A DNA stretch of 64,000 nucleotides from Thermus thermophilus (GTDB lineage Bacteria; Deinococcota; Deinococci; Deinococcales; Thermaceae): contig NZ_AP025158.1 of the NCBI RefSeq assembly GCF_019974155.1, positions 1,054,001-1,118,000 of the forward strand. Reading direction: 5' to 3'. Of the stretch, positions 3,337 to 42,971 are shown piece after piece (within the stretch, counting starts at the first letter, position 1; each line of letters begins with the position of its first letter). A model generated the notes under the pieces. That model did not search any database, was not told the DNA's origin, and was given only the letters and a program-made list of their open reading frames with translations. The translations under genes were made by a program, and so were the position numbers.

Positions 3337-5460
3337 ATGCTCCGCCTCCTGCGGGGAGCGGTGCTCCTCCTCTTGGTTCTGGCCTTTTTGGATCCCAAGG
3401 GGTCCTTGCCGGGCCGGGTGGTCTACCTCCTGGACTTCTCCCCCTCGGCCCGGGAGAGCGTCTTCGCCCTGGCCCCTCGCCTTCCCCGGGATGGGGTCTA
3501 CGTGGCCTTCGCCGAGCGGGCCGCCACCCTGCCCTCGCCCACGGCGAGAAGGCTGGACCTCGGGGAGGGGACGGACCTCCGGGAGGCCTACAAGGAGGCC
3601 CTCCGCCACCGGCCAAGCCGGGTGGTCCTGGTCTCCGACGGGCTTTTGGAGCCCATCCCCCCGCCCTTTCCCCTGGACGCCCTTTACGTCCCTCCAAGGC
3701 CTTACGTGGCGGTGCGGCTCGTCCCCCCGGCCTACCCCCTCTACGGGGAGACCGTGGGGGTGGGGGTGGTGCTGGAGGCCCCCGCGCCCGCGGAGGCGAG
3801 GCTTAGGGTGGAGGGGCCTGGGGGGGTTTTGGAGAGGACCTTGAGGGTGGAGGGGAGGAAGGCCCTCGTCTACACCTTTTCCCTCACGGAGAAGGCCAGG
3901 GTGCAGGCGGTGGCGGAAGGCCCCTGGGGGCGGAGCGAGGCGGCGGTGGAGGTGGCCCCCGCGGACCGGGCCAAGGCCTTGGTCCTCGGGGATGCGGCCC
4001 TCGCCCGCTACCTCGAGGCCCAGGGCTTCCAGGTGGAGGAGGGCCCCTTCCGCCTCCCCCTGGAGGCCGACCTGGTGGTCGTGGGGGTGGGGGTTTTGGA
4101 CCTCCCCGAGGGGGCGCCCGAGGCCCTTAAGGCCTTCCTCCGCCAAGGAGGCGGCCTCCTTTTCACCGCCACCCCGAAGGGCCTCTTCTTTGGGGGCTGG
4201 GACCGGGCTTTGCCCGAGGAGCTTCCCCTAAAGCCCCTGGGCCGGGAGGGGGCGGCCTTGGTCCTTGTCCTGGACGTTTCGGGAAGCATGGAGGGGGAGA
4301 AGCTCGCCTTGGCGGTCTCCGCCGCCTTGGCCCTCGCCCGCACCGCTACCCCGGAGGACTACCTGGGGGTGGTGGTCTTCGCCTCCGGCCACCGGGTCCT
4401 CTTCCCCCCGCGGCCCATGACCGACCGGGCCAGGAAGGAGCTGGAAACCCTCCTCCTCTCCTTGCGGGCTGGCGGGGGCACGGTCATGGGCGGGGCGCTC
4501 CGGGAGGCGTTCCGCCTCCTCGAGGGGGTGCCCCGGTCCCGGAAGGGGGTCCTGGTCCTCACCGACGGCCAGGTGGCGGACGACCGGGAGGTCCTCCTTG
4601 CTCTCGCGGAACGGAGCGGGGTGGAGGTCTCCGCCATCGCCCTGGGAGGGGACGCCGACGCCCCCTTCCTCGAGGCCCTGGCCCAAAGGGGCGGGGGGCG
4701 GTTCTACCGGGCGGCCTCCCCCAGGGAGCTTCCCCGCCTCTTCCTGCGGGAGGGGCAGGAGGTCTTCCGGGGAGAGGCCCTGGAGGGAAGGTTCCCCGTG
4801 GAGGCCAGGCCCCACCCCCTCACCGAGGGCTTCCGCTTTCCCCCCCTTTCCGTCCTCCTCCCCGCGAGGGCCGAGCCTTGGGCCGAGGTCCTCCTCACGA
4901 GCGGCGAGCGGGCCGTCCTCGCCGTGGGGGAGCGGGGGGAAGGGAGGGTTGCGGCCCTCGCCACGGACCTCTCCCGCTCCTGGCGGGACTTCCCCGAGGC
5001 CTCCGCCTTCCTCGGGGGGCTTTTCCGCTGGCTCATCGGGGCGAGGCGGGCCCTCGCCCTCTACGCCTACCCGGAGGGGGAGGGGGTGAGGGTGGTGGCC
5101 TTGGGCCCCCTGGAGGCGCCCGAGCTCCTCTCGGGAGGGGCGAGGCGGCCCATGGTTCCCACCGGGCCCCTCCGCTTTGAGGCCCGGGTGGAAGGGGAGG
5201 GGGTGCTTTTGGACAGGGGGCTCCGCCTCCCCCTCGCCCTTCCCCTCCCGGGGGAGTGGAGCCCGCGGGACGGGCGGGAGGTCCTGAGGGCCTTGGCCGA
5301 GGCCTCGGGGGGCAGGCTCCTCGCGGGCCCGGCGGCCTCCTCGGGGAAGGAGGCCCTTCCCTTGAGGCCCTTCCTCGTGGGCCTCGCCCTGGCCCTCTTC
5401 CTGTTGGAGCGCTTCCTGGAGGCCCGCCTTGACAAGGGGGCTTCCTGGGCCCTACTTTAG
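3337..5460 (+). CDS. von Willebrand A domain membrane protein
   Basis: A 707-residue protein. An N-terminal hydrophobic segment (LLRGAVLLLLVLAFL) should direct it to the membrane. A central VWA domain begins near residue 307 and has a complete metal-ion-dependent adhesion site, DVSGSM, with D313. A C-terminal hydrophobic helix (PFLVGLALALFLLERF) anchors the other end. The architecture (N-terminal segment, class I amidotransferase-like or Rossmann region, VWA, C-terminal helix) resembles bacterial chloride-channel-like or aerotolerance VWA proteins. The true partner is unknown. It stands alone, 30 bases after ribBA, with its own -10 box. Confidence 0.8.
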   Translation: MLRLLRGAVLLLLVLAFLDPKGSLPGRVVYLLDFSPSARESVFALAPRLPRDGVYVAFAERAATLPSPTARRLDLGEGTDLREAYKEALRHRPSRVVLVSDGLLEPIPPPFPLDALYVPPRPYVAVRLVPPAYPLYGETVGVGVVLEAPAPAEARLRVEGPGGVLERTLRVEGRKALVYTFSLTEKARVQAVAEGPWGRSEAAVEVAPADRAKALVLGDAALARYLEAQGFQVEEGPFRLPLEADLVVVGVGVLDLPEGAPEALKAFLRQGGGLLFTATPKGLFFGGWDRALPEELPLKPLGREGAALVLVLDVSGSMEGEKLALAVSAALALARTATPEDYLGVVVFASGHRVLFPPRPMTDRARKELETLLLSLRAGGGTVMGGALREAFRLLEGVPRSRKGVLVLTDGQVADDREVLLALAERSGVEVSAIALGGDADAPFLEALAQRGGGRFYRAASPRELPRLFLREGQEVFRGEALEGRFPVEARPHPLTEGFRFPPLSVLLPARAEPWAEVLLTSGERAVLAVGERGEGRVAALATDLSRSWRDFPEASAFLGGLFRWLIGARRALALYAYPEGEGVRVVALGPLEAPELLSGGARRPMVPTGPLRFEARVEGEGVLLDRGLRLPLALPLPGEWSPRDGREVLRALAEASGGRLLAGPAASSGKEALPLRPFLVGLALALFLLERFLEARLDKGASWALL

Positions 5461-33599: not shown

Positions 33600-33674
33600 G
33601 GGCGGCTAGCTCAGTGGAAGAGCGCTCGCCTCACACGCGAGAGGTCGTAGGTTCAAGTCCTACGCCGCCCACCA
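33600..33674 (+). tRNA. tRNA-Val(CAC), host gene of the integrated element
   Basis: A complete cloverleaf: acceptor GGGCGGC/GCCGCCC, D arm GCTC-AGTGGAA-GAGC, anticodon arm CTCGC-CTCACAC-GCGAG giving anticodon CAC, T arm GTAGG-TTCAAGT-CCTAC, discriminator A and encoded CCA. The 3' half from 33628 is repeated exactly at 42925-42971, so the copy here was restored by the integrated element. Confidence 0.95.
33628..33674. repeat. attL: tRNA-Val 3' half
   Basis: The 47 bases from GCCTCACACG to CCACCA are identical to 42925-42971. This copy completes the functional tRNA. Confidence 0.93.
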
Positions 33675-33693
33675 GCTCCAGGACACAAAGCTT

Positions 33694-33715
33694 CCCCCCA
33701 CGGTAGCGTGGGGGG
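33694..33715. terminator. Hairpin between tRNA-Val and the integrase gene
   Basis: CCCCCCACG-GTAG-CGTGGGGGG forms a strong stem flanked by CTT and AAAA. It can end transcripts arriving from either side, the tRNA or the integrase. Confidence 0.6.
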
Positions 33716-33725
33716 AAAACCTTTA

Positions 33726-33749
33726 GCCGGTTTATCAGCCGGTCTATCC
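33726..33749. repeat. Tandem 12-bp repeat, left arm of the element
   Basis: GCCGGTTTATCA and GCCGGTCTATCC lie head to tail. The same tandem pair occurs near the right end at 42800-42823 and in the inverted remnant at 59962-59985. Position near both ends suggests arm-type binding sites for the integrase or excisionase. Confidence 0.7.
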
Positions 33750-33751
33750 GT

Positions 33752-34927
33752 TCAGGCTTGGGCGCGGGGGGCGGGGTAGAGAAGTTCTTCCAGGTCCAGC
33801 ACCCACCCCCGGCGCTCCTCCTCCAGAAGGTGGCGGTACACATTCAGGGTGATGGTGGGGCTGGCGTGGCCCAGCCTTTCGCTCACCACCTCCAGGGGCA
33901 CGCCCCGGGAGAGGGCCAGGGTGGCCCAGGTGTGCCTGAGGTCGTGCACCCTCACCCGGCCCAAGCCCGCCCTTTCCGCCAGGCGGCGCAGGTAGTGGTT
34001 GAACGCGTCCGGATCCACGGGCTTTACCCCGCCCACCAGGAAGAGCCCGTCCACCTCCTCCGGGGTGAGCCTCGCCAGAAGCTCCTCCCTCCGGGCCCTG
34101 AGGCGAAGGAGGAGGCCACGGGGCAAGGGCACCTTGCGCTTGGCCGTGGGGGTCTTGGGCTCGGAGAAGGCTCCCCTTCCGGCCACCTTTACCCAAGCCC
34201 GCCACACGGTAAGCTCCCCGGCCTCCAGGTCTATGTCCCGCCACTGCAGGGCCAGGGCCTCGCCCCGGCGGAGCCCGGTTTCCAGCATGAGCCGGAGGAG
34301 CAGGGCCATGTCCTTGGACCGGGAGGCTTCGGCGGCCTCCAGAAGCCGGGCCACCTCGTGGGGCTCCAGGGCCCTGGCCGCCTTCTCCCCCTTGGGCAGG
34401 CGCAACCTCACGGCTTCGGCGGGGTTTCTGGCCACCAGTTCCAGCCGTAGGGCCTCCCGGAAGAGGGCCTTGAGCCGCATGAGCACCCGGCCCACGGTGC
34501 GGGGGGCGTAGCCTGCTTCCACCACCCGGTCCACGGCGGCCCGCACATGGACCGGCTTCACCTCCTGGAGCCGCATGCGGCCCAGGGGGTCGTGGGCCTT
34601 GGGGTCCTTGAGGGAGGGGAGGGCGTGGGCCAGCTCGTCCAAGGCCAGGCGGATGGAGTTCGGCCTAAGCCCCTCCCGCTCCAGGCGTTTCAGGTACTCC
34701 AGGGCGAAGTCCCGCGTGGTGAGCCTGGAGGGGTCGGTGAGGAGCCCTTTGGCCTGGGCGGCCACCATATCCGCCAGGGCCCTTTCGGCCTCCTTGCGGG
34801 TTTCGCAATGCTTCTCCCGCTTGACCTTCCGGCCCGTGGCGGGGTCTACCCAGGTGAGCTGGGCTATCCACTTCCCCTTGCCCTCGTGGTAGAAGACGCT
34901 TCCGCCCCCTTTGCCGCGCCTTCGCAT
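33752..34927 (-). CDS. int: Tyrosine recombinase (integrase)
   Basis: A 391-residue phage-type integrase. N-terminal arm-binding region (GGSVFYHEGKGKWIAQLTW), core-binding SAM-like domain (LTTRDFALEYLKRLEREGL), and catalytic domain with Arg in TGLRRGEALALQW, His-x-x-Arg in HDLRHTWATLAL, His in LGHASPTI and the Tyr nucleophile in NVYRHLL. It lies next to attL, as usual for tRNA-integrating elements. ATG at 34927 overlaps the upstream small ORF stop (TGATG), which couples their translation; AGGAGG precedes it. Confidence 0.96.
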   Translation of the reverse strand: MRRRGKGGGSVFYHEGKGKWIAQLTWVDPATGRKVKREKHCETRKEAERALADMVAAQAKGLLTDPSRLTTRDFALEYLKRLEREGLRPNSIRLALDELAHALPSLKDPKAHDPLGRMRLQEVKPVHVRAAVDRVVEAGYAPRTVGRVLMRLKALFREALRLELVARNPAEAVRLRLPKGEKAARALEPHEVARLLEAAEASRSKDMALLLRLMLETGLRRGEALALQWRDIDLEAGELTVWRAWVKVAGRGAFSEPKTPTAKRKVPLPRGLLLRLRARREELLARLTPEEVDGLFLVGGVKPVDPDAFNHYLRRLAERAGLGRVRVHDLRHTWATLALSRGVPLEVVSERLGHASPTITLNVYRHLLEEERRGWVLDLEELLYPAPRAQA

Positions 34928-35058
34928 CACCACCTCCTACGCTTCCTTCCCTTGCGCCAAAGCCACCGGGCCCGGCGTAGGGCCCACCGCTTGCCCACCC
35001 GGCCCCGGGCCAGCATCTTGGCGAAGCGAAGCCAGGACCAGAGCTTCCTAAGGTTCAC
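34927..35058 (-). CDS. 43-residue Arg/Trp-rich basic peptide between xis and int
   Basis: Starts at GTG (35058) inside the last codons of the excisionase-like gene and ends with TGA overlapping the int ATG. It encodes 43 residues beginning MNLRKLWSWLRFAKMLARG and ending LWRKGRKRRRW. Sixteen arginines/lysines or more and five tryptophans, with no acidic residues, give a strongly basic amphipathic helix-like peptide. The nested overlaps with both neighbours argue that it is translated. It may be a DNA-bending or recombination accessory factor, or merely a coupling ORF; function unknown. Confidence 0.55.
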   Translation of the reverse strand: MNLRKLWSWLRFAKMLARGRVGKRWALRRARWLWRKGRKRRRW

Positions 35059-35227
35059 GGTACTCCTTCCCCTCCAAGAACGCCTCCACGGCGGCCCTCG
35101 GGATGCGCCAAACCCGGCCCACCTTCACCGCGTGGAGCTTTTTGGCGTAGATGAGCTTTTCCACCGTCTTGCGGCTAACCCGGAGGAGCTTGGCCACTTC
35201 CTCCACGGTCAAGACTTCTCCTTGCAT
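35048..35227 (-). CDS. xis: Excisionase-like HTH protein
   Basis: A 59-residue winged-helix protein of the excisionase/MerR-like HTH_17 family: EVLTVEEVAKLLRVSRKTVE is the DNA-binding helix pair and VGRVWRIPRAAVEAFL the wing. The ATG at 35227 was chosen as it lies 6 bases after a TATCTT -10 box and gives the family length; an in-frame upstream extension covers non-coding repeats. It is placed directly upstream of int, as directionality factors usually are. Confidence 0.8.
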   Translation of the reverse strand: MQGEVLTVEEVAKLLRVSRKTVEKLIYAKKLHAVKVGRVWRIPRAAVEAFLEGKEYREP

Positions 35228-35233
35228 GCCTGT

Positions 35234-35239
35234 AAGATA
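35234..35239 (-). promoter_or_regulatory. -10 box (TATCTT) for the xis-int operon
   Basis: Minus-strand TATCTT with 6 bases to the ATG at 35227. Confidence 0.45.
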
Positions 35240-35276
35240 CCACAGAAGCCCGGAGGAGGGTAGTGAGGGGTGTTCA

Positions 35277-35300
35277 TTCGCGAAATCTTTCTTTCGCGAA
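35277..35300. promoter_or_regulatory. Paired TTCGCGAA palindromes upstream of xis
   Basis: Two copies of the perfect palindrome TTCGCGAA lie at 35277-35284 and 35293-35300, 16 bp centre to centre, about 40-60 bp upstream of the xis -10 box. The arrangement looks like an operator for the HTH protein of the element. Confidence 0.5.
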
Positions 35301-35380
35301 GATGGCAGGGCGGCCTCGAGGCCCCGGGGCAACCCGTCAGCCCTTGACGGGGAGGAGGGGTAGGTTAGAGGTTTCCCGGT

Positions 35381-35573
35381 GGCCGCAAAACCCCGGTTTT
35401 GGACCGCTATGGTCCGTTATCGGCCACCCCGAGGGCTAGCCCCCCTCTTCCCGGTGTTCCGTTTCGGAACGGAACGCTTAGTGTTCCGCTATGTTCCGAA
35501 ACGCCAAAGTGTCCCGTTATGTCCCGTTTCGGCCAAAACCCCGGTTTGCGCCGTTATGCGCCGAAACGCCAAA
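35381..35573. repeat. Array of variant repeats, candidate origin or control region
   Basis: This 193-bp non-coding stretch holds four 16-bp units of the form NNNCCG-YTAT-NNNCCG at 35401, 35483, 35511 and 35548. Within a unit the two hexamers match each other (GTTCCG/GTTCCG, GTCCCG/GTCCCG, GCGCCG/GCGCCG; the first is GGACCG/GGTCCG), while differing between units. Units are followed by AAACGCCAAA or TTTCGGCCAAAA. CAAAACCCCGGTTT occurs twice, and a GTTCCG-TTT-CGGAAC palindrome lies at 35456-35470. The region lies between the replication operon and xis. No credible gene: long plus-strand frames here are repeats translated by chance. Confidence 0.75.
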
Positions 35574-35639
35574 CTCGTGGCCCCTTCCAAATCCCCGAGA
35601 GTCCTCTTGCGCGTGGGCATTCTCTCACCTCCTCACCCC

Positions 35640-35918
35640 TCACCCCCCGGGGGGTTGCCACGCCCACAGGGTCTTGGGCGGGTCTACCCACACCGTACCG
35701 AGGGGGCCAAGGTCCACCGCCTCCTTGAGAAACTTCCCCCCGAGGTAGGGCCACATGCGGGCCGTGATGCCCGCGAACCTGGCCCACGGCCACATGGCCG
35801 CTACCCACCGGGCTACGGTGTGGAGGGGGCAAGGGTCTTCCGGGCTGGCCTCGAGGCCGGGGACCTCCGGGGGTGCCGCCCCCTCAAGGTCCTCAAGCAA
35901 GGGCTTCTTCGCGGTCAT
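35640..35918 (-). CDS. Unknown 92-residue protein of the element
   Basis: Starts MTAKKPLLEDLEGAAPPEVP after a GGAGGAGGAAGC ribosome site and overlaps the polymerase stop by 4 bases (ATGA), so it belongs to the replication operon. It is rich in Trp and aromatic residues in the second half (WVAAMWPWARFAG, TVWVDPPKTLWAW). No family recognised. Confidence 0.6.
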   Translation of the reverse strand: MTAKKPLLEDLEGAAPPEVPGLEASPEDPCPLHTVARWVAAMWPWARFAGITARMWPYLGGKFLKEAVDLGPLGTVWVDPPKTLWAWQPPGG

Positions 35919-36155
35919 GCTTCCTCCTCCTCCCACGGCGTAGCCCCCCAGTCCCGGTAAACGCCCCCTTCCACCTCCACGGGCACCGCGTTCCCAAGCA
36001 CCTCCTCCATCCCTTGGCGCATGAGGGCGGTGAGGGCTTCCAGGTTCTCCCTGGCCCCTTCCTCGGGGGACTCCAATACCAGCTCGTCATGCACGGCCAG
36101 GACGGGGAAGGCTTTCCAGAGCAACGCCCGGTTCTCCCAGAGGAGGGCCAGGGCC
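35915..36155 (-). pseudogene. Family A DNA polymerase, C-terminal fragment after IS insertion
   Basis: It encodes ALALLWENRALLWKAFPV, then polymerase motif C in LAVHDELVLES and the C-terminus. It is the 3' part of the gene at 37330-39152. Removing the IS4 element and one 9-bp duplication joins the two parts in one frame of 684 codons plus stop. Confidence 0.9.
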
Positions 36156-37338
36156 CTGAGCTCTCATCACTTTGAGGGCTGGGGCTTGACAAGGGAAGAG
36201 AAGAGGGGGGTAAGTAAGGTGTGCCGCCCACCACCCCCCTTTCCCAAGTTATCACCCTCTGGGTCCATAAGGTCTTCGCCTCCCTCAGGAAAACCATCCG
36301 CTCCAACCTCGCCCTCTTCCTGTCCACCCTCCTCACTACCCCCCTGGACCCCACCCTCTCCGACCTCGCCCGCAGAACCCCCCTCCCCACCCTGGCCCAA
36401 AGCCGCCTCAATCGCCTCTGGCGCTTCCTCCATCACCCCACCCTGCAAGACCCCTGGGCCCTCACCGAAGCCCTCCTCCCCCTCCTCGTCCCTCGTTTCC
36501 CCAAAGACCGCCCCCTCCCCCTCATCGTGGACTGGACCTTCACAGAGGACGGTAGGCACCAAGCCCTGGTGGCCGCCCTTCCCCTCAAGGGAAGGGCCCT
36601 GGTGGTGGCCTTCGCTCTTCACCCCCTCTCCCCTTTCCCCAGTCAAAACCGGGTGGAGGAGGAGTTCCTCCACCGCCTGGGCCGCGCCGTCCAGGACCTG
36701 GGATATACCCCCCTCTTCCTCCTGGACCGCGGCTTTGACCGGGTCTCCCTGATGCGAAAGCTCCAGGGGTGGGGCATGGGCTTCCTCATCCGCCTGCGGC
36801 AGAACCGGGAGGTGGAACCCCAAGGGGGGAAGCGCCTTCCCCTGAAGGAGGGCTACCGGCGTGTGGTCCACCCCCTGCGGGAGGAGGTCCGCCTTTTCGG
36901 ACACGGTGGGGAGGGGGTAGAAGTCACCCTCCTGGTGTACCCAGGGGGTCGGGATCCCTGGTATCTGGCCTATTCGGGCCCTTTTGGGGGGGAGCCGCCC
37001 TATGGGTGGCGGATGTGGATTGAAGAGGGGTTTAGGGACCTGAAGGGGCAGGGGTTTGGGCTGGACCGCCATCGGCTGCGGACGGGGGCGAGCCTCAGGG
37101 GGTGGTTATGGCTTCTGGCCTTGGGGATGGCGCTCTTGGTCCTTCTGGGGGCGCGCTTGCAGGGCAGGGAATGGCTTCCCCGGCTTCTGGCCCATCCCGA
37201 GCGGCAAAGCCTCTTCCGTCTGGGCCGGATCGCCCTGGCCCAGGGGCCCCCGCCTTGGAGGGAAGCAGTGGTGGAGGAGCTGGTCAGGTTGCTTCAGGAA
37301 CTGGGGGGAGGAAAGTGATGAGAGCTCAGGCCAGGGCC
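36147..37338. mobile_element. IS4-type insertion sequence with 9-bp target duplication
   Basis: The element spans 36156-37329 (1174 bp). Terminal inverted repeats are CTGAGCTCTCATCACTTT (36156-36173) and its exact complement (37312-37329). The 9-bp target GCCAGGGCC is present at 36147-36155 and 37330-37338. A TTGACA box at 36186-36191 inside the left end may drive the transposase gene. Clean ends and duplication imply a recent insertion. Confidence 0.95.
36221..37318 (+). CDS. IS4 family transposase
   Basis: A 365-residue DDE transposase, intact. The acidic residues are in LIVDWTFTED, LFLLDRGFDRVSL and the YREK signature YGWRMWIEEGFRDLKG (Y-2-R-3-E-6-K), which is diagnostic of IS4. The start is GTG at 36221 with AAGG upstream. 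It ends 11 bases before the right end of the element. Confidence 0.92.
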   Translation: MPPTTPLSQVITLWVHKVFASLRKTIRSNLALFLSTLLTTPLDPTLSDLARRTPLPTLAQSRLNRLWRFLHHPTLQDPWALTEALLPLLVPRFPKDRPLPLIVDWTFTEDGRHQALVAALPLKGRALVVAFALHPLSPFPSQNRVEEEFLHRLGRAVQDLGYTPLFLLDRGFDRVSLMRKLQGWGMGFLIRLRQNREVEPQGGKRLPLKEGYRRVVHPLREEVRLFGHGGEGVEVTLLVYPGGRDPWYLAYSGPFGGEPPYGWRMWIEEGFRDLKGQGFGLDRHRLRTGASLRGWLWLLALGMALLVLLGARLQGREWLPRLLAHPERQSLFRLGRIALAQGPPPWREAVVEELVRLLQELGGGK

Positions 37339-39152
37339 ATCTTGAGCCCGTCCGCCCCGGTTCCCTGTACCGGGGTGTTGAGCTTTTCCGTGTAGCGGTC
37401 CGTGGTCCTCCTCCGGCCCAAGAGGGTCCTCACCACCACCTCCCCCTCGGGCTGGGACCGGTGCCAGCGCTTGAGGGCGGGGTAAGCCCGGAAGAACGCG
37501 TCCCGAAGCTTCTGGGCCTCCTCGGGGGTGAGCTTCACCCCGTAGGCGGTGAGGGCGTACCTCCGGAGCCCTTCCGCCCCCAGCCCGTAGAGAAGCCCGA
37601 AGTTCAGCGCCTTGGCCAGTTGCCGGTCCTCCTTGCCCACCTCTTCCAGGGGCTTCCCCAGGACCAGGCTGGCGGTGAGGGCGTGAAGGTCCTTCCCCTC
37701 CCGGAACGCCCTAAGCATCCGCCCTTCCCGGGCTATGGCGGCGGCAATCCGCAGTTCAATCTGGGAGAAGTCGGCCTTGAGGAGCACCCTACCTTCGGGG
37801 GCCCGGAAGGCCCTCCTTAAGGCGGGGTCCCGGGGCACCTGCTGGAGGTTGGGCTTGCGGCACGCCATGCGGCCGGTTTCCGCCCCTATCTGTTGCCAGG
37901 AAGGATGGATGCGCCCCGTGGCCGGGTTCAGATGCTTGGCCCACTCCTTCCCGTAGGTGCTCGCCCGCTTGGCCGCTTCCCGGTACCGGAGGAGCTTGGC
38001 CACCAGGGGATGGTCCCGGTAGGCGGCCAAGGTGTCCTCCCGGGTGTCGGGGAGGTCCAGCCCCTCCTTCTTCAGATAGGCCAGCGCCTGGGCGGGGCTG
38101 TTCCAGTTCACCCCGAAGGGGAGTTCCGCGCGTAGGGCTTCCGCCTCCCGTTCCGCTTCCCTGGCCGCCTCCTCCCAGAGGTCCGGGGCGAAGGGCACCC
38201 CCCGAAGCTCCATCCACGCCACGGCGGGGAGGGCGCGGTGCTCCACCTCAAGGACCTTCTCAAGCCCCATGGCCCGGGCCCGTTCCCTCTGCTCCCGGTA
38301 GAGGGCTAGGCCGGCCAGGGCATCCGTGGCGGCGTAGGCCAGTTGCTCCGGGGAGAGGGGGCCGCTCCAGTCCGAGGTCTGCAGGGACTTGTCCAGCCCC
38401 GAAACCAGGTCCTTTAAGGCGGGCATGCGGGCTTGGGCGTGGAGCACCTGGTGGGCCAGTCCGGTGTCCCAAAGCCGCTTGCCGCTAGCCCCCCACACCC
38501 CGGCCTTGAGGAGGAAGAGGAGGTCAAACTTCAGGTTGTGCCCCACCAAAAGGGGCCCCTCCTCCCGGGAGAAGAGGGGGCGGAAGACTTCCAGGGGCAC
38601 CCCGAAGAGGTCAAGCACGACTACCGCCCCCGGCGTGGCCAGGGAGAGGAGCCGGGGCTTGGCCGTGTGGGGGTCAAGCCCCGTGGTTTCCAGGTCCACC
38701 CCCAGGACGGGCTGGCGCATGAGGAGGTCCACCAGCTCCCCCATGCCGGGGCCTACTTCCGGGATGTAGTGGAGTTCAAACCCCTCCACCTTCGCCGGCA
38801 ACCCGGCCACCTCCACCACCCCCTCCTCGGGGGTAGCTACACGCCCCCCTCCAAACCCACCCGGCAAACCCGGCAACCCCCCTTCAAGGAGGGGTTTATG
38901 CCCTTCCTCATCGGAAAAATCCTTGCCGGGTACCTCTCCCGGCACCCACCCGGCACCACCCGGCACTTCCCCGGCACCCCCACCCTTGCCAGGTTCTGCA
39001 GGGGGTTGCCGGGTAGGTGCCGGGTAGTCCACCCGGCAGGGGGTTTCATCGTGCAGGACGGAGTTTTTGGCCTCTTTTTCCCCCGGTGCCGGGTTTGCCG
39101 GGTGGGTTCCCGAGTCAATGAGTCTAGCCAGGGCCTCGAGGTCAATGGGCAT
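37330..39152 (-). pseudogene. Family A DNA polymerase of the element, N-terminal part, disrupted
   Basis: A plasmid/phage-type polymerase. After a Gly/Pro-rich, probably disordered N-terminus (about 1-120) comes a 3'-5' exonuclease domain with the catalytic acids intact (LGVDLETTGLDPH, HNLKFDLLFLL, YAATDALAGLALY), unlike the chromosomal polA. It continues with polymerase motif A LKADFSQIELRIAA and motif B RQLAKALNFGLLYGLG. It then stops in the IS after DGLKMALA, so motif C is lost. There is no 5' nuclease domain. ATG at 39152 has GGAGGTGGGG upstream and overlaps the ATPase gene end by 11 bases. Confidence 0.92.
38860..39102. repeat. Cluster of CCCGGCA/TGCCGGG heptamers
   Basis: About twelve copies of CCCGGCA in either orientation lie within 243 bp, inside the coding region for the low-complexity N-terminus of the element polymerase. 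The clustering is dense even for this GC content and could mark a protein-binding or replication origin site; a coding explanation (Pro/Gly repeats) is equally possible. Confidence 0.45.
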
Positions 39153-41358
39153 GCCCCACCTCCTCATGAACGCGGGGGTTGACCAGGTAGGCCCGGGCCT
39201 CGGGGTCATACGCCACCCACCCCGCCTTCTCCAGAAGCCAAAGAGCCCGGCCCGCTTCCTCGGAAGTGGTGATGCCGCCCCACTCTTTGGTGTAGACCTC
39301 CCGGCGGGTGAAGCGCTCCACCTTCCCCTCCCTGAGCCGTTTGGCCAGCCGGATGGCCGGGGAGATGTCCCCCACCTCTCCCACGCGCCAAGCCCGCTTG
39401 GCGTGGGGTTCAAGGATGGCCTTGACCAGGAAGATGGCCCGGGCCATGGTCCTCTCGCTTATCACCCCCGGTTCGCCCCACAAGGCGCTAAGGATGCCCG
39501 CCATCCTGGCCGTGAGCCCCATCCGCTTGCTCAGGTACCCGCGCCACGCCTCGGGAAGCTCAGGGTTGCGTTGCTCCTGGAGGGTTTCAAAGCGCCACTC
39601 CTTCCAGAGCCGGTACGCCTCGGGGGAGGGGCTGACCATCGTGGGCACTTCCTCAGCCCAAAGCCGCATCACCAGGTCCCGGTAGCCCCAAAGCGTTTCC
39701 TCCGGCACCGGCGGGGGCTCCTTGACCGGAGGAAGGGGGTCAAGGACCACGGGGGTAAACCTCTGCAGTAGCCCATCCGCGTCCTCCCCTTTGCCAAGCC
39801 CGCCCCGCACCACCTGGTGCCATGGCCCGGCTTGAATACCGCCAAGAAGGGCCACCTGCGGCCGTGGCAGGTATGTGGTGCCCCTGCTCACCCGGTCCAC
39901 CACGAAGGGGGTGCCGTGGTAGGCGCTAAGGAAGAACGCCCGCCCTTGGGCCCGGTCCTCCCGCCTCCAAGCGAGGAGAAGCCCCTTTAGCTCGTCCACC
40001 ACGGCCAGCACGGCAGGGTTGCCCTCCAGGATGCTGGCCAGCTTCTCCGGGGTAGCGTCGCCAACCACCAACCGGCGGGGAACGGGGGGCTTGGGCTTCT
40101 CACCCCGCTCTCCCTTCTTGGCAGCTTGCCACTCAAGAAGCTCCTGCTCGTACGCCTCTAGGGCAGCCTTGTTTTCCTCGGCCAAGGAGTGCTCAATGGC
40201 CCAAAGGGGCTTTGCGGCTTCCCGGATGATGGGGGTCTTCCCGCTTCCCGGCGGCCCCACCAGCACCGCCCAAAGGACGGGGGTTTCCTCCCAACCGGCG
40301 TTCGCGGGCTCGGGGGCCACCGCCAGCTTGCGGTGGGCCAAGACGGCGCTCACGGCGGCCAGCATGGCCACGGCGGGGGCGGTGGGCTCCACCAAAAGCT
40401 GGCCGGCTAGGGCGTTGGCCAGGTCCTCCATGGCCGGGGGGAGGAGCCCCCGCTTCCAGGGGGGCAAGGGGGCTTCCAGCTCCTCCAGGGGCTTGGGCTT
40501 GGGCCACTCCCTGGGCTCCTCCCCGAGGAGCTTGGCGATGGGGCTGGGGTCAAGCCCCACCTCCTTGAGGAAGGGAATGCCGCGCTTATTCGGGTAATCC
40601 GATGAGCTTGCGGCTTCGGCCAGCCGGCTTAGTTCCTCCCTCCAATCCTCGAGGGTGCGGGTATCCGCAAGCTCCCATGCCTCGTAGACCTTGGAGGTCC
40701 CGAGGAGCACCTTCACTTCTTCCAGCACCCCGGCCCGGTGAGCCAGGTTGAGGAGGGTCATGGCCGCTTCATGCCGTGGCCCCGAGGGGCGGCGTTGCAA
40801 AGCAACCTCCAGGAACGGCACAGCCCGCACCAACCGGCGTATGGCCTCCGGGCTGGCGTACCGGGGCCGGAAGGGAAGGGAAACGGGGCTTTTGCTCCAA
40901 GCCCCGTAGAGGGGCCGGGGCTGGCCGTTCAAAGCTCCGAAAAGGGGGAGGAAAAGGCCGTGCTGGCCGTTAGGGTAGCCCTCCACGCTGTGCCCCTCCC
41001 CGAGGAGGAGCTTGGCTAGGGCGGCCAGTCCTCGGGCCAACTCCTCCAGGTCCGGTAGGGGCTCCTCAAAGAAAAACCATACCTTGGAGCCCCGCGTGTT
41101 GCCCGGGCCAGCGTAGGCCGGGACTTCCAGGGCGTTCAGGACTTCAATGAGGGGACGGAGGTCCCGGAGGTCCGTGCGGTCAAGGTCCAGGTTGATGGCC
41201 TTATCCGGTACCAGCCCGAGGAGCCGGCGGCCCTCAAGGTGGGCTTTCAGGTCATCACCAGAGGGAGGCCGGTTTTCCCACCAAACCTTCTTGGTCCCGT
41301 TCTCAATGACTCCCAAAAGGGTGCGGGGCTGGGGCTTGGAAGCGAAGAAGTCAAGCAT
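39142..41358 (-). CDS. Primase-like and DUF3987 P-loop ATPase replication protein
   Basis: A 738-residue protein. The N-terminal ~190 residues resemble an archaeo-eukaryotic primase-polymerase core: AINLDLDRTD supplies an Asp-x-Asp pair and GSKVWFFFEEPLP recalls the conserved strand of PrimPol/TOTE-type primases. The middle (about 340-640) is a DUF3987-type helicase/ATPase with Walker A VGPPGSGKTPI and acidic AVVDELKGLL. The C-terminal end looks like a winged helix (TTSEEAGRALWLLEKAGWV). ATG at 41358 follows GGGGGAGGTGG and lies inside the end of the zinc-ribbon gene. With the adjacent polymerase it forms a replication module. The primase assignment is inference. Confidence 0.72.
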   Translation of the reverse strand: MLDFFASKPQPRTLLGVIENGTKKVWWENRPPSGDDLKAHLEGRRLLGLVPDKAINLDLDRTDLRDLRPLIEVLNALEVPAYAGPGNTRGSKVWFFFEEPLPDLEELARGLAALAKLLLGEGHSVEGYPNGQHGLFLPLFGALNGQPRPLYGAWSKSPVSLPFRPRYASPEAIRRLVRAVPFLEVALQRRPSGPRHEAAMTLLNLAHRAGVLEEVKVLLGTSKVYEAWELADTRTLEDWREELSRLAEAASSSDYPNKRGIPFLKEVGLDPSPIAKLLGEEPREWPKPKPLEELEAPLPPWKRGLLPPAMEDLANALAGQLLVEPTAPAVAMLAAVSAVLAHRKLAVAPEPANAGWEETPVLWAVLVGPPGSGKTPIIREAAKPLWAIEHSLAEENKAALEAYEQELLEWQAAKKGERGEKPKPPVPRRLVVGDATPEKLASILEGNPAVLAVVDELKGLLLAWRREDRAQGRAFFLSAYHGTPFVVDRVSRGTTYLPRPQVALLGGIQAGPWHQVVRGGLGKGEDADGLLQRFTPVVLDPLPPVKEPPPVPEETLWGYRDLVMRLWAEEVPTMVSPSPEAYRLWKEWRFETLQEQRNPELPEAWRGYLSKRMGLTARMAGILSALWGEPGVISERTMARAIFLVKAILEPHAKRAWRVGEVGDISPAIRLAKRLREGKVERFTRREVYTKEWGGITTSEEAGRALWLLEKAGWVAYDPEARAYLVNPRVHEEVGHAH

Positions 41359-41515
41359 CGTCCACCTCCCCCTCGCCTTCTGCAACGGGCCACTCGGCCC
41401 CACAGCGCGGGCAAAAGACGCGTCCCCCGAGGTCAAAACGCTCGTAGTTCTCTGGCACGGGGCAACCGCAATGCGGGCAGGTTGCCGTGTAGAATGGTTC
41501 CGTAGCCGCTACCAC
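41351..41515 (-). CDS. 54-residue zinc-ribbon protein
   Basis: It starts at GTG (41515) after TAGGAGGTT and ends with TGA inside the start of the primase-like gene. It encodes two zinc knuckles, TCPHCGCP and FCPRCGAEW, spaced as in a zinc ribbon, with an acidic tail (EGEGEVDD). Coupling to the primase-like gene suggests a role in replication or transcription of the element. Confidence 0.65.
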   Translation of the reverse strand: MVAATEPFYTATCPHCGCPVPENYERFDLGGRVFCPRCGAEWPVAEGEGEVDDA

Positions 41516-41524
41516 GGCAACCTC

Positions 41525-41737
41525 CTACCGCCCCCGGGCCTCCACCCCGGGGGTCTTCTCCAACTCCTCCATGCGGCCTTCAGCGATAGCCTCCGCCACG
41601 CGAAGCGGCACCAGCCAGCGCCGTCCCAAGCGCACCCCGTAGCGCCGGGCAAGTTCGTAGCTTAGGTCCCTCCCAACTTTGTCCCGTCCCAGGTAATCTC
41701 GCAGTTCTTCCGGCGTGAGCAACCTCTTCTCGTGCAT
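41525..41737 (-). CDS. Small HTH protein, excisionase/regulator type
   Basis: A 70-residue protein with LLTPEELRDYLGRDKVGRDL as a probable helix-turn-helix and VRLGRRWLVPLRVAEAI as the wing, as in excisionase-type DNA-binding proteins. ATG at 41737 is preferred; the longer frame upstream covers the divergent gene. It is the first gene of the replication operon and probably controls it. Confidence 0.6.
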   Translation of the reverse strand: MHEKRLLTPEELRDYLGRDKVGRDLSYELARRYGVRLGRRWLVPLRVAEAIAEGRMEELEKTPGVEARGR

Positions 41738-41771
41738 GGCCCCATGTTTTCGTGGTAAAACGGGAATAGCA

Positions 41772-42728
41772 ATGGCTGTATCCGTAACGGTAGCCGTAAC
41801 GCTAACCGCCCACCCGGTTAGGGTGCCCGTAGCCTGGGCCGATGGGCCCGAGGAGCTTCCCGAATGGGAGGGGGTTTCCCCCTTGGTCGCTTTTCTCTCA
41901 ACCGAGAGGGGCACATGGAGGAAACATGTGCTTCAACGGCCAGCCCGAAGCGTCTTCCCCAGGCTCGTGCGCAGGTCCCTCCTGGCTCAGGACTTGCCTC
42001 AAGGAAAACCCGTTTCGCCTCTTGAGGCCCTGTCCCGGGTATTCAGGACGGCGTTGAAAGACTCAAACCCCTACGCCAAAGGAAGCCCTACGCGGGAAGC
42101 CGTTCTCTGGGCCGCAGAGAACGCGGGCCTTCTCGTCCCCTTCAAGGTGGAAAGGGCCGCATGGCCTCCTCTGGTTTCGGGGGAGGATTTGGTTTCGTGG
42201 TTGGCCGCGGCCTATGTCGTAGGGACTTGGCGCATCGTCCTTCGCCTTCTCAGCGATGGGCACTCGTACAAGGAAATCCGTCAGGAAGTCTTCTCCAGGT
42301 TCGGGTTAGAGTTTGCTTCCGGGTCCAATGACCTAGTGCGAAGCCAGTCCGGTGATTCACCTGATATTCCCCTATGGGCCCTGGATGTGCTGGAAGCCCT
42401 CTGGCGCAAGAAGCCCAAGACTCAAGTAGTCCGGGCTTGGCTTAGAGAGGCCGCCCTTAGTGGGCTGGTTCTTGACAGCCGGGGTGAGTTCTGGCCCTTC
42501 TTTTCTAACCGTCCCGAGGAGCCGGAGCTACCTCTTGCGGCCCCTAAGTGGGTTGCTACGGGCGGGGTTTACCACCTCGCCCTCCTCCAACTGGCTCAGG
42601 CGCGAAAGAAAGAGCGTCTATGCGTCTGGTGTGGTGGGGGCATTTTGGGCCGGGGGGACAAGCGCTACTGCTCCAACGCATGCCGTCAGGCGGCCTATAG
42701 GGCCAAGAAAAAGGTGGGGACTATCTGA
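41772..42728 (+). CDS. Unknown protein with C-terminal YCSxxCR zinc finger
   Basis: About 318 residues from ATG 41772; an earlier ATG at 41715 would overlap the divergent HTH gene. The middle is helical (VSWLAAAYVVGTWRIVLRLL, SYKEIRQEVFSRF) and the C-terminus has CVWCGGG and KRYCSNACRQAAYRAKK, a zinc finger common at the end of mobile-element regulators. Its GC content is lower than the chromosome, in keeping with transfer. It reads opposite to the other element genes. Confidence 0.6.
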   Translation: MAVSVTVAVTLTAHPVRVPVAWADGPEELPEWEGVSPLVAFLSTERGTWRKHVLQRPARSVFPRLVRRSLLAQDLPQGKPVSPLEALSRVFRTALKDSNPYAKGSPTREAVLWAAENAGLLVPFKVERAAWPPLVSGEDLVSWLAAAYVVGTWRIVLRLLSDGHSYKEIRQEVFSRFGLEFASGSNDLVRSQSGDSPDIPLWALDVLEALWRKKPKTQVVRAWLREAALSGLVLDSRGEFWPFFSNRPEEPELPLAAPKWVATGGVYHLALLQLAQARKKERLCVWCGGGILGRGDKRYCSNACRQAAYRAKKKVGTI

Positions 42729-42796
42729 GCTTGCCTGATGAAGGCGCACCTCGAGGCTCCTCGGCCTCCTCAATGTTTCCTAGAACGACTCTACGG

Positions 42797-42930
42797 CCAG
42801 CCGGTTTATCAGCCGGTCTATCACCCCGGAAATGGCCGGCTATTGGAGAAAGTTCCAGGAAAGCGCATCGGAGAAAACCGCGTCTGGAAGGGGAAAAACG
42901 GAAGATTGCGGGGGTTCTGGGCTTGCCTCA
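42797..42930. repeat. Right arm of the element, homologous to 59855-59988
   Basis: Non-coding, 134 bp up to the att core. It includes the tandem pair GCCGGTTTATCA/GCCGGTCTATCA (42800-42823) and a third, weaker copy GCCGGCTATTGG (42835-42846). Compared by eye with the reverse complement of 59855-59988 there are about 12 differences in 134 bases. Confidence 0.85.
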
Positions 42931-42971
42931 CACGCGAGAGGTCGTAGGTTCAAGTCCTACGCCGCCCACCA
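42925..42971. repeat. attR: duplicated tRNA-Val 3' half
   Basis: Exact 47-bp copy of 33628-33674. The acceptor 5' strand and D arm are absent, so it is not a tRNA. Confidence 0.95.

Follow-up and report, generated by a model that had tools for sequence, protein, structure and literature searches.

The window analysed here, a 64-kb stretch of Thermus thermophilus DNA, holds a whole ICETh2-type integrative element of 9.3 kb (33628-42971, att to att), which is delimited by a 47-bp exact direct repeat, one copy at the 3' end of tRNA-Val (33628-33674) and the distal copy at 42925-42971. On the minus strand the genes follow the order DUF3987 helicase (39142-41436; PF13148, E 4.8e-57), polA, ORF98 (35640-35936, the last gene before the repeats), the repeat array that we call array 2, an HTH_17 protein that is the likely excisionase (xis, 35048-35227; PF12728 and PHROG excisionase families) and a tyrosine integrase of the Int2 type (33752-34933; PF00589, E 4.6e-29). 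This order agrees with the location given to the repeats in an earlier sequence-only reading, between the replication genes and xis-int. The polA gene is split by an insertion sequence (about 36150-37320) with a transposase ORF at 36221-37318 on the plus strand, and the copy of the gene in T. brockianus has no interruption. The element is of the ICETh2 type by its 47-nt att at tRNA-Val and by an Int2-type integrase adjoining the excisionase, the integrase having been compared with 98% relatives in other Thermus. A Pfam match to Prim-Pol was absent from the nine element proteins scanned, and the pair of PrimPol and helicase was not found among them.

Two further features of these genes deserve a comment. 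Most of the differences that separate the helicase (39145-41418) from that of T. brockianus, gaps included, fall in the first 200 residues (41 of 67), 12 more are found in the last 58 residues and the middle is nearly unchanged. Upstream of xis there is a palindromic operator-like site (35277-35300, TTCGCGAA-N8-TTCGCGAA), a pattern present in 25 of 27 Thermus genomes and in 0 of 23 other Thermaceae. The GCGAAATGTACCTTTCGCGAA version of this palindrome is found once in most Thermus genomes, and from this recurrence a host regulator may control excision.

Array 2 consists of four GYTAT-centred units within 35401-35562. Their consensus is CGNNNC-ATAR-CGNNNC on the int/xis strand and GNNCC-GYTAT-GNNCC on the plus strand, with the two half-sites of each unit arranged head-to-tail 10 bp apart. 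Each unit is a 1.5-copy 10-bp repeat. The four units carry four words. The halves are identical in unit C (35483-35497, GTTCC-GCTAT-GTTCC), unit D (35511-35525, GTCCC-GTTAT-GTCCC) and, in the window, unit E (35548-35562, GCGCC-GTTAT-GCGCC), the three exact matches that had been claimed from the sequence. The fourth member of the proposed family, unit A (35401-35415, GGACC-GCTAT-GGTCC), does share the GYTAT centre but its halves are reverse complements without a direct match. The block CAAAACCCCGGTTT indeed occurs twice (35386-35399 and 35534-35547). Exact N6-N4-N6 repeats are found at 22 places in the window, three of them in array 2, and three such repeats inside 100 bp appeared in 0 of 100 dinucleotide shuffles of the window, which confirms that the cluster is real. 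The spacing from unit to unit (28 and 37 bp) is not helical. No AT-rich segment was found in array 2, where GC in 60-bp windows ranges from 0.52 to 0.67.

Some of the units lie within potential secondary structures. Module A (35378-35428) holds CAAAACCCCGGTTTTG and unit A enclosed by the stem GGTGGCCG / CGGCCACC, and an analogous stem module is present in the element L184. Unit C is held in a hairpin (35460-35503, CGTTTCGGAAC / GTTCCGAAACG) identified by an 11-bp perfect inverted repeat and by fold prediction. A possible ORF of 43 aa (35489-35620, minus strand) with a GAGGTGAGAG leader enters array 2 and has its stop inside unit C, and its first residues are similar to those of ORF98 (DLEGA). 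A blast search of array 2 against plasmids and phages gave no match beyond chance.

Relatives were gathered by searches with the integrase, ORF98 and the unit pattern, and many Thermaceae elements were recovered. The same element as in the window is carried by T. brockianus YIM 77927, where 35377-35546 is unchanged at 170 of 170 bases, no other stretch being as well conserved between the two; the neighbouring ORF98/polA-end stretch has 429 matches and 53 mismatches in 482 aligned positions. Units of the form CGNNNC-ATAR-CGNNNC are found upstream of integrase genes in Thermus (G000, G041, G042, G008 and G018) and in other genera, by inference the Meiothermus group (G053, G054, G059, G061, G068, G069, G070 and G074), while those of G062 lie at a contig end in the same ORF as in these other genera. 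In several Thermus and other Thermaceae elements they stand 0.1-1.3 kb upstream of Int2-type integrases. The pattern GTNCCGYTATGTNCC gave 20 matches in 111 genomes, 14 of them upstream of Int2-type integrases at that distance, two in the same ORF at contig ends and four elsewhere, against one match in all for the reversed control. Matches in G006 and in the IMG/VR contigs L039 and L041 were discarded as unrelated coding DNA for the helix-turn-helix residues R-N-I-A-E. The orientation of the units relative to int varies among elements.

Outside Thermus, the units are mostly located within an ORF, in a linker (residues 79-99) predicted to be disordered, between a winged-helix-like part and a second domain. 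In L328 one of the four units does not share the reading frame of the others, which suggests that it is the DNA and not the peptide that is kept. In Thermus the units accompany ORF98 (in the window, L045 and L184), and L185 has ORF98 with a degenerate copy of array 2 in which the ATA step is missing. Two elements, L186 and L187, have the same xis and a 98% identical integrase but neither ORF98 nor array 2, so that homologous elements lacking the repeats do exist, a finding that the sequence-only reading had named as adverse to its case. By this distribution, array 2 goes with ORF98 and not with xis. In L190/L191, no more than about 40 bp separate the nearer unit from the palindrome upstream of xis. 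A separate palindrome, CCGTCA..TGACGG, together with its AACCYCTAAC/CTACCCCTCCT flank, is inverted in L184 (about 3800-3865) with respect to window positions 35330-35370.

A way to evaluate the matching of the two halves is to score the three variable bases and to shuffle the right halves among units. In 23 distinct units the halves differ at 17 variable-base positions vs. 43 after shuffling (P<5e-5), a figure that, like those that follow, is a guide because the units were listed manually and those that are homologous do not count as independent. Some of the 23 had been retrieved with a pattern in which two of the three variable bases are fixed, and the test was therefore repeated on 16 units that were not selected by that pattern and without the window element, with 17 mismatches vs. 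32 shuffled (P<2e-5); a set of 12 units with fewer homologues gave 14 vs. 25 (P 4e-4). Exact identity of the halves in the 16-unit set was not significant (3 vs. 1.1, P 0.09). The likeness of the halves is thus beyond chance, and the covariation proposed from the window stands to this extent in independent elements. Its strict form, in which both halves change together, is refuted by changes in one half only: unit E of T. brockianus is GCGCC-GCTAT-GAGCC (GCG/GAG, the match being lost), and in other Thermaceae unit 1 occurs both as CGGAAC/CGGCAC and as CGGCAC/CGGCAC. The halves are similar, not locked. Counts in IMG/VR contigs point in the same direction (matched words 32 and 26 vs. mixed words 3 and 6; 21 and 18 vs. 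3 and 5 after removing repeats) but give weak support because they are confounded, 15 of the 33 GGA matches being ordinary single-word iteron arrays and the GCA matches looking mostly like ordinary coding DNA.

A second array, array 1 (38744-39102), is located where helicase and polA meet, in the frame of the polA N terminus, and contains 13 copies of TGCCGGG in both orientations. Many of these elements have such an array near the helicase gene. Each element uses a single word, repeated roughly 6 to 16 times in either orientation and frequently arranged in direct pairs separated by three bases, around palindromes like CGTCCAGGACG; words found elsewhere include GCGTGCGC, GTGCAAG, TTCCCGG, TGTTCCC and more. 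Array 1 is built from the same kind of direct word pairs as array 2. Within an element the words shift in concert while the CGTCCAGGACG-like skeleton is kept (window 38744-39102; L045 5066-5548; L043 8791-9180). In T. brockianus, TGTCGGG is mixed with TGCCGGG, which looks like an intermediate state. Identical copies of array 2 occur with the array-1 words CGGTAAC, CACTGAC, TACCGCA and CGTGCAC in different elements and, since the word of array 1 varies while array 2 stays the same, the reader of array 1 is not the reader of array 2. This module swapping rules out a single reader for both arrays.

We interpret array 2 as a predicted protein-binding cluster of iteron-like double half-sites, involved in the control of replication or excision, a reading to which we give about an even chance. 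Array 2 would belong to a control region that separates the replication genes from the xis-int operon, with two head-to-tail half-sites per unit, one helical turn apart around the ATA step. The reader would be a DNA-binding protein that the element encodes and that is passed on with the int-proximal module; the candidates are the ORF98 type in Thermus and, in other Thermaceae, the predicted winged-helix ORF. By occupying array 2 it might couple xis-int expression to replication of the excised circle. Readers specific to each unit, an option of the sequence-only reading, are possible but not needed, and its binding array and origin options both survive. The absence of an AT-rich segment, the use of several words, the position away from the helicase gene and the non-helical spacing of the units in the window count against our reading. 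DNA binding by ORF98 is a guess, given the low confidence of its structure model. In L322, the winged-helix part of the ORF resembles the C terminus of the primase-helicase of the same element (E 0.003, weak); a Foldseek search with the model of this ORF gave no significant match, and no relatives of it were found in viral contigs.

The similarity of the halves may have a simpler origin. If each unit arose as a tandem duplication homogenised by slippage, with variable bases that are neutral irrespective of what binds the fixed ones, no selection for matching would be involved; the 1.5-copy structure of the units and the one-half changes in T. brockianus and other Thermaceae fit this view, which we regard as possible if somewhat unlikely, as the ATAR centre and the 10-bp spacing persist across genera and 170 bp have remained unchanged while the neighbouring sequence drifts. 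Slippage concerns the origin of the likeness and can be compatible with double half-sites. The opposite idea, that likeness itself is required whatever the word so that both halves must change together (for instance if a short primer or strand, once synthesised on one of the halves, had to pair again with the other across the ATA step), seems to us very doubtful. Array 2 could also be an operator cluster only, binding a regulator of xis-int transcription without any role in replication. It does lie just upstream of the xis promoter region and the palindrome at 35277-35300, and the nearer unit of L190/L191 is at about 40 bp or less from this palindrome. L186 and L187, however, share xis, promoter and palindrome and are without array 2, and in other genera the array lies within the upstream ORF and far from xis, all of which makes this alternative unlikely.

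Structure in a single strand is another matter to consider. The structured RNA suggested from the sequence is disfavoured because there is no Rfam match at gathering score for array 2 (only two sub-threshold chance matches), the RNA fold z is only -2.5/-2.6 and in other genera the units in the coding linker are found in more than one frame. As single-stranded DNA, the plus strand folds with z=-5.2, and hairpins with GYTAT unpaired could represent a single-strand origin or a primase start site: the stem-plus-AAACCCCGGTTTTG module is retained in L184 on a stem of another sequence, two changes in the inter-unit hairpin of L190/L191 leave it paired through G-T, and ICEBs1 has an sso made of stem-loops (PMC4595007). 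This is nevertheless improbable in our view, given that units D and E lack a clear partner to pair with, that the units of other genera are direct repeats in coding DNA and that unit orientation vs. int is not constant among elements. Accessory sites of recombination, either arm-type Int sites or Xis sites, have even less to recommend them. Direct repeats at about 10 bp resemble the general design of arm-type sites, and this likeness and the association of array 2 with Int2-type integrases are in their favour; the distance from the att core (about 1.8 kb) and the lack of an array in L186 and L187, despite a 98% identical integrase, leave them a slim chance. Double half-sites for an element-encoded protein are our preferred reading of array 2.

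Array 2 and its counterparts form a family of cis sites common to integrative elements of a whole bacterial family, with half-sites that are correlated yet freely varying. If bound as we propose, array 2 would make it possible to test directly how changes of word are tolerated by a DNA-binding system while the pairs stay alike. The decoupling of both arrays shows that the replication and int-proximal modules are exchanged separately among these elements, and the arrays give concrete sites at which to look, in a genetically tractable thermophile, for the origin of ICETh2-type elements and for the control of their excision.

In the part of its description consulted (PMC7693054), ICETh2 of Thermus thermophilus HB27 targets tRNA-Val with a 47-nt att and shares with the element in the window this target, an integrase plus excisionase and a replication module in between; that part makes no mention of an iteron array, and as far as it goes the differences are the DUF3987 helicase, the polA split by an IS and the lack of a PrimPol match among the proteins scanned here. 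The origins of SaPI/PICI and SCCmec (PMC6092414, where a cis site of phage P4 is also mentioned, and PMC7581432) likewise have short repeated words near replication genes, and in SaPI and SCCmec the iterons are bound by the C-terminal domain of the helicase (PMC7581432). Array 1 fits origins of these types as described there (PMC6092414, PMC7581432), and is like those of SaPI/PICI in adjoining the helicase gene and in having one word per element in both orientations. Array 2 is not classed with SaPI/PICI-type origins because it differs from them in three defining features: polA and ORF98 intervene between it and the helicase, it has several words instead of many copies of one, and it has no AT-rich segment flanked by two iteron sets. 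That array-1 words vary beside an unchanged array 2 speaks, indirectly, against binding of array 2 by the C-terminal domain of the helicase. Its pairs with an ATAR centre lie one module further on, adjoining xis-int, and we report it as a new variant of iteron-like sites. In phage P4, ori and crr are two iteron clusters that are both read by the same alpha protein. Two separated clusters in one satellite-type element are thus a shared feature, but the two arrays here carry unrelated words that vary independently.
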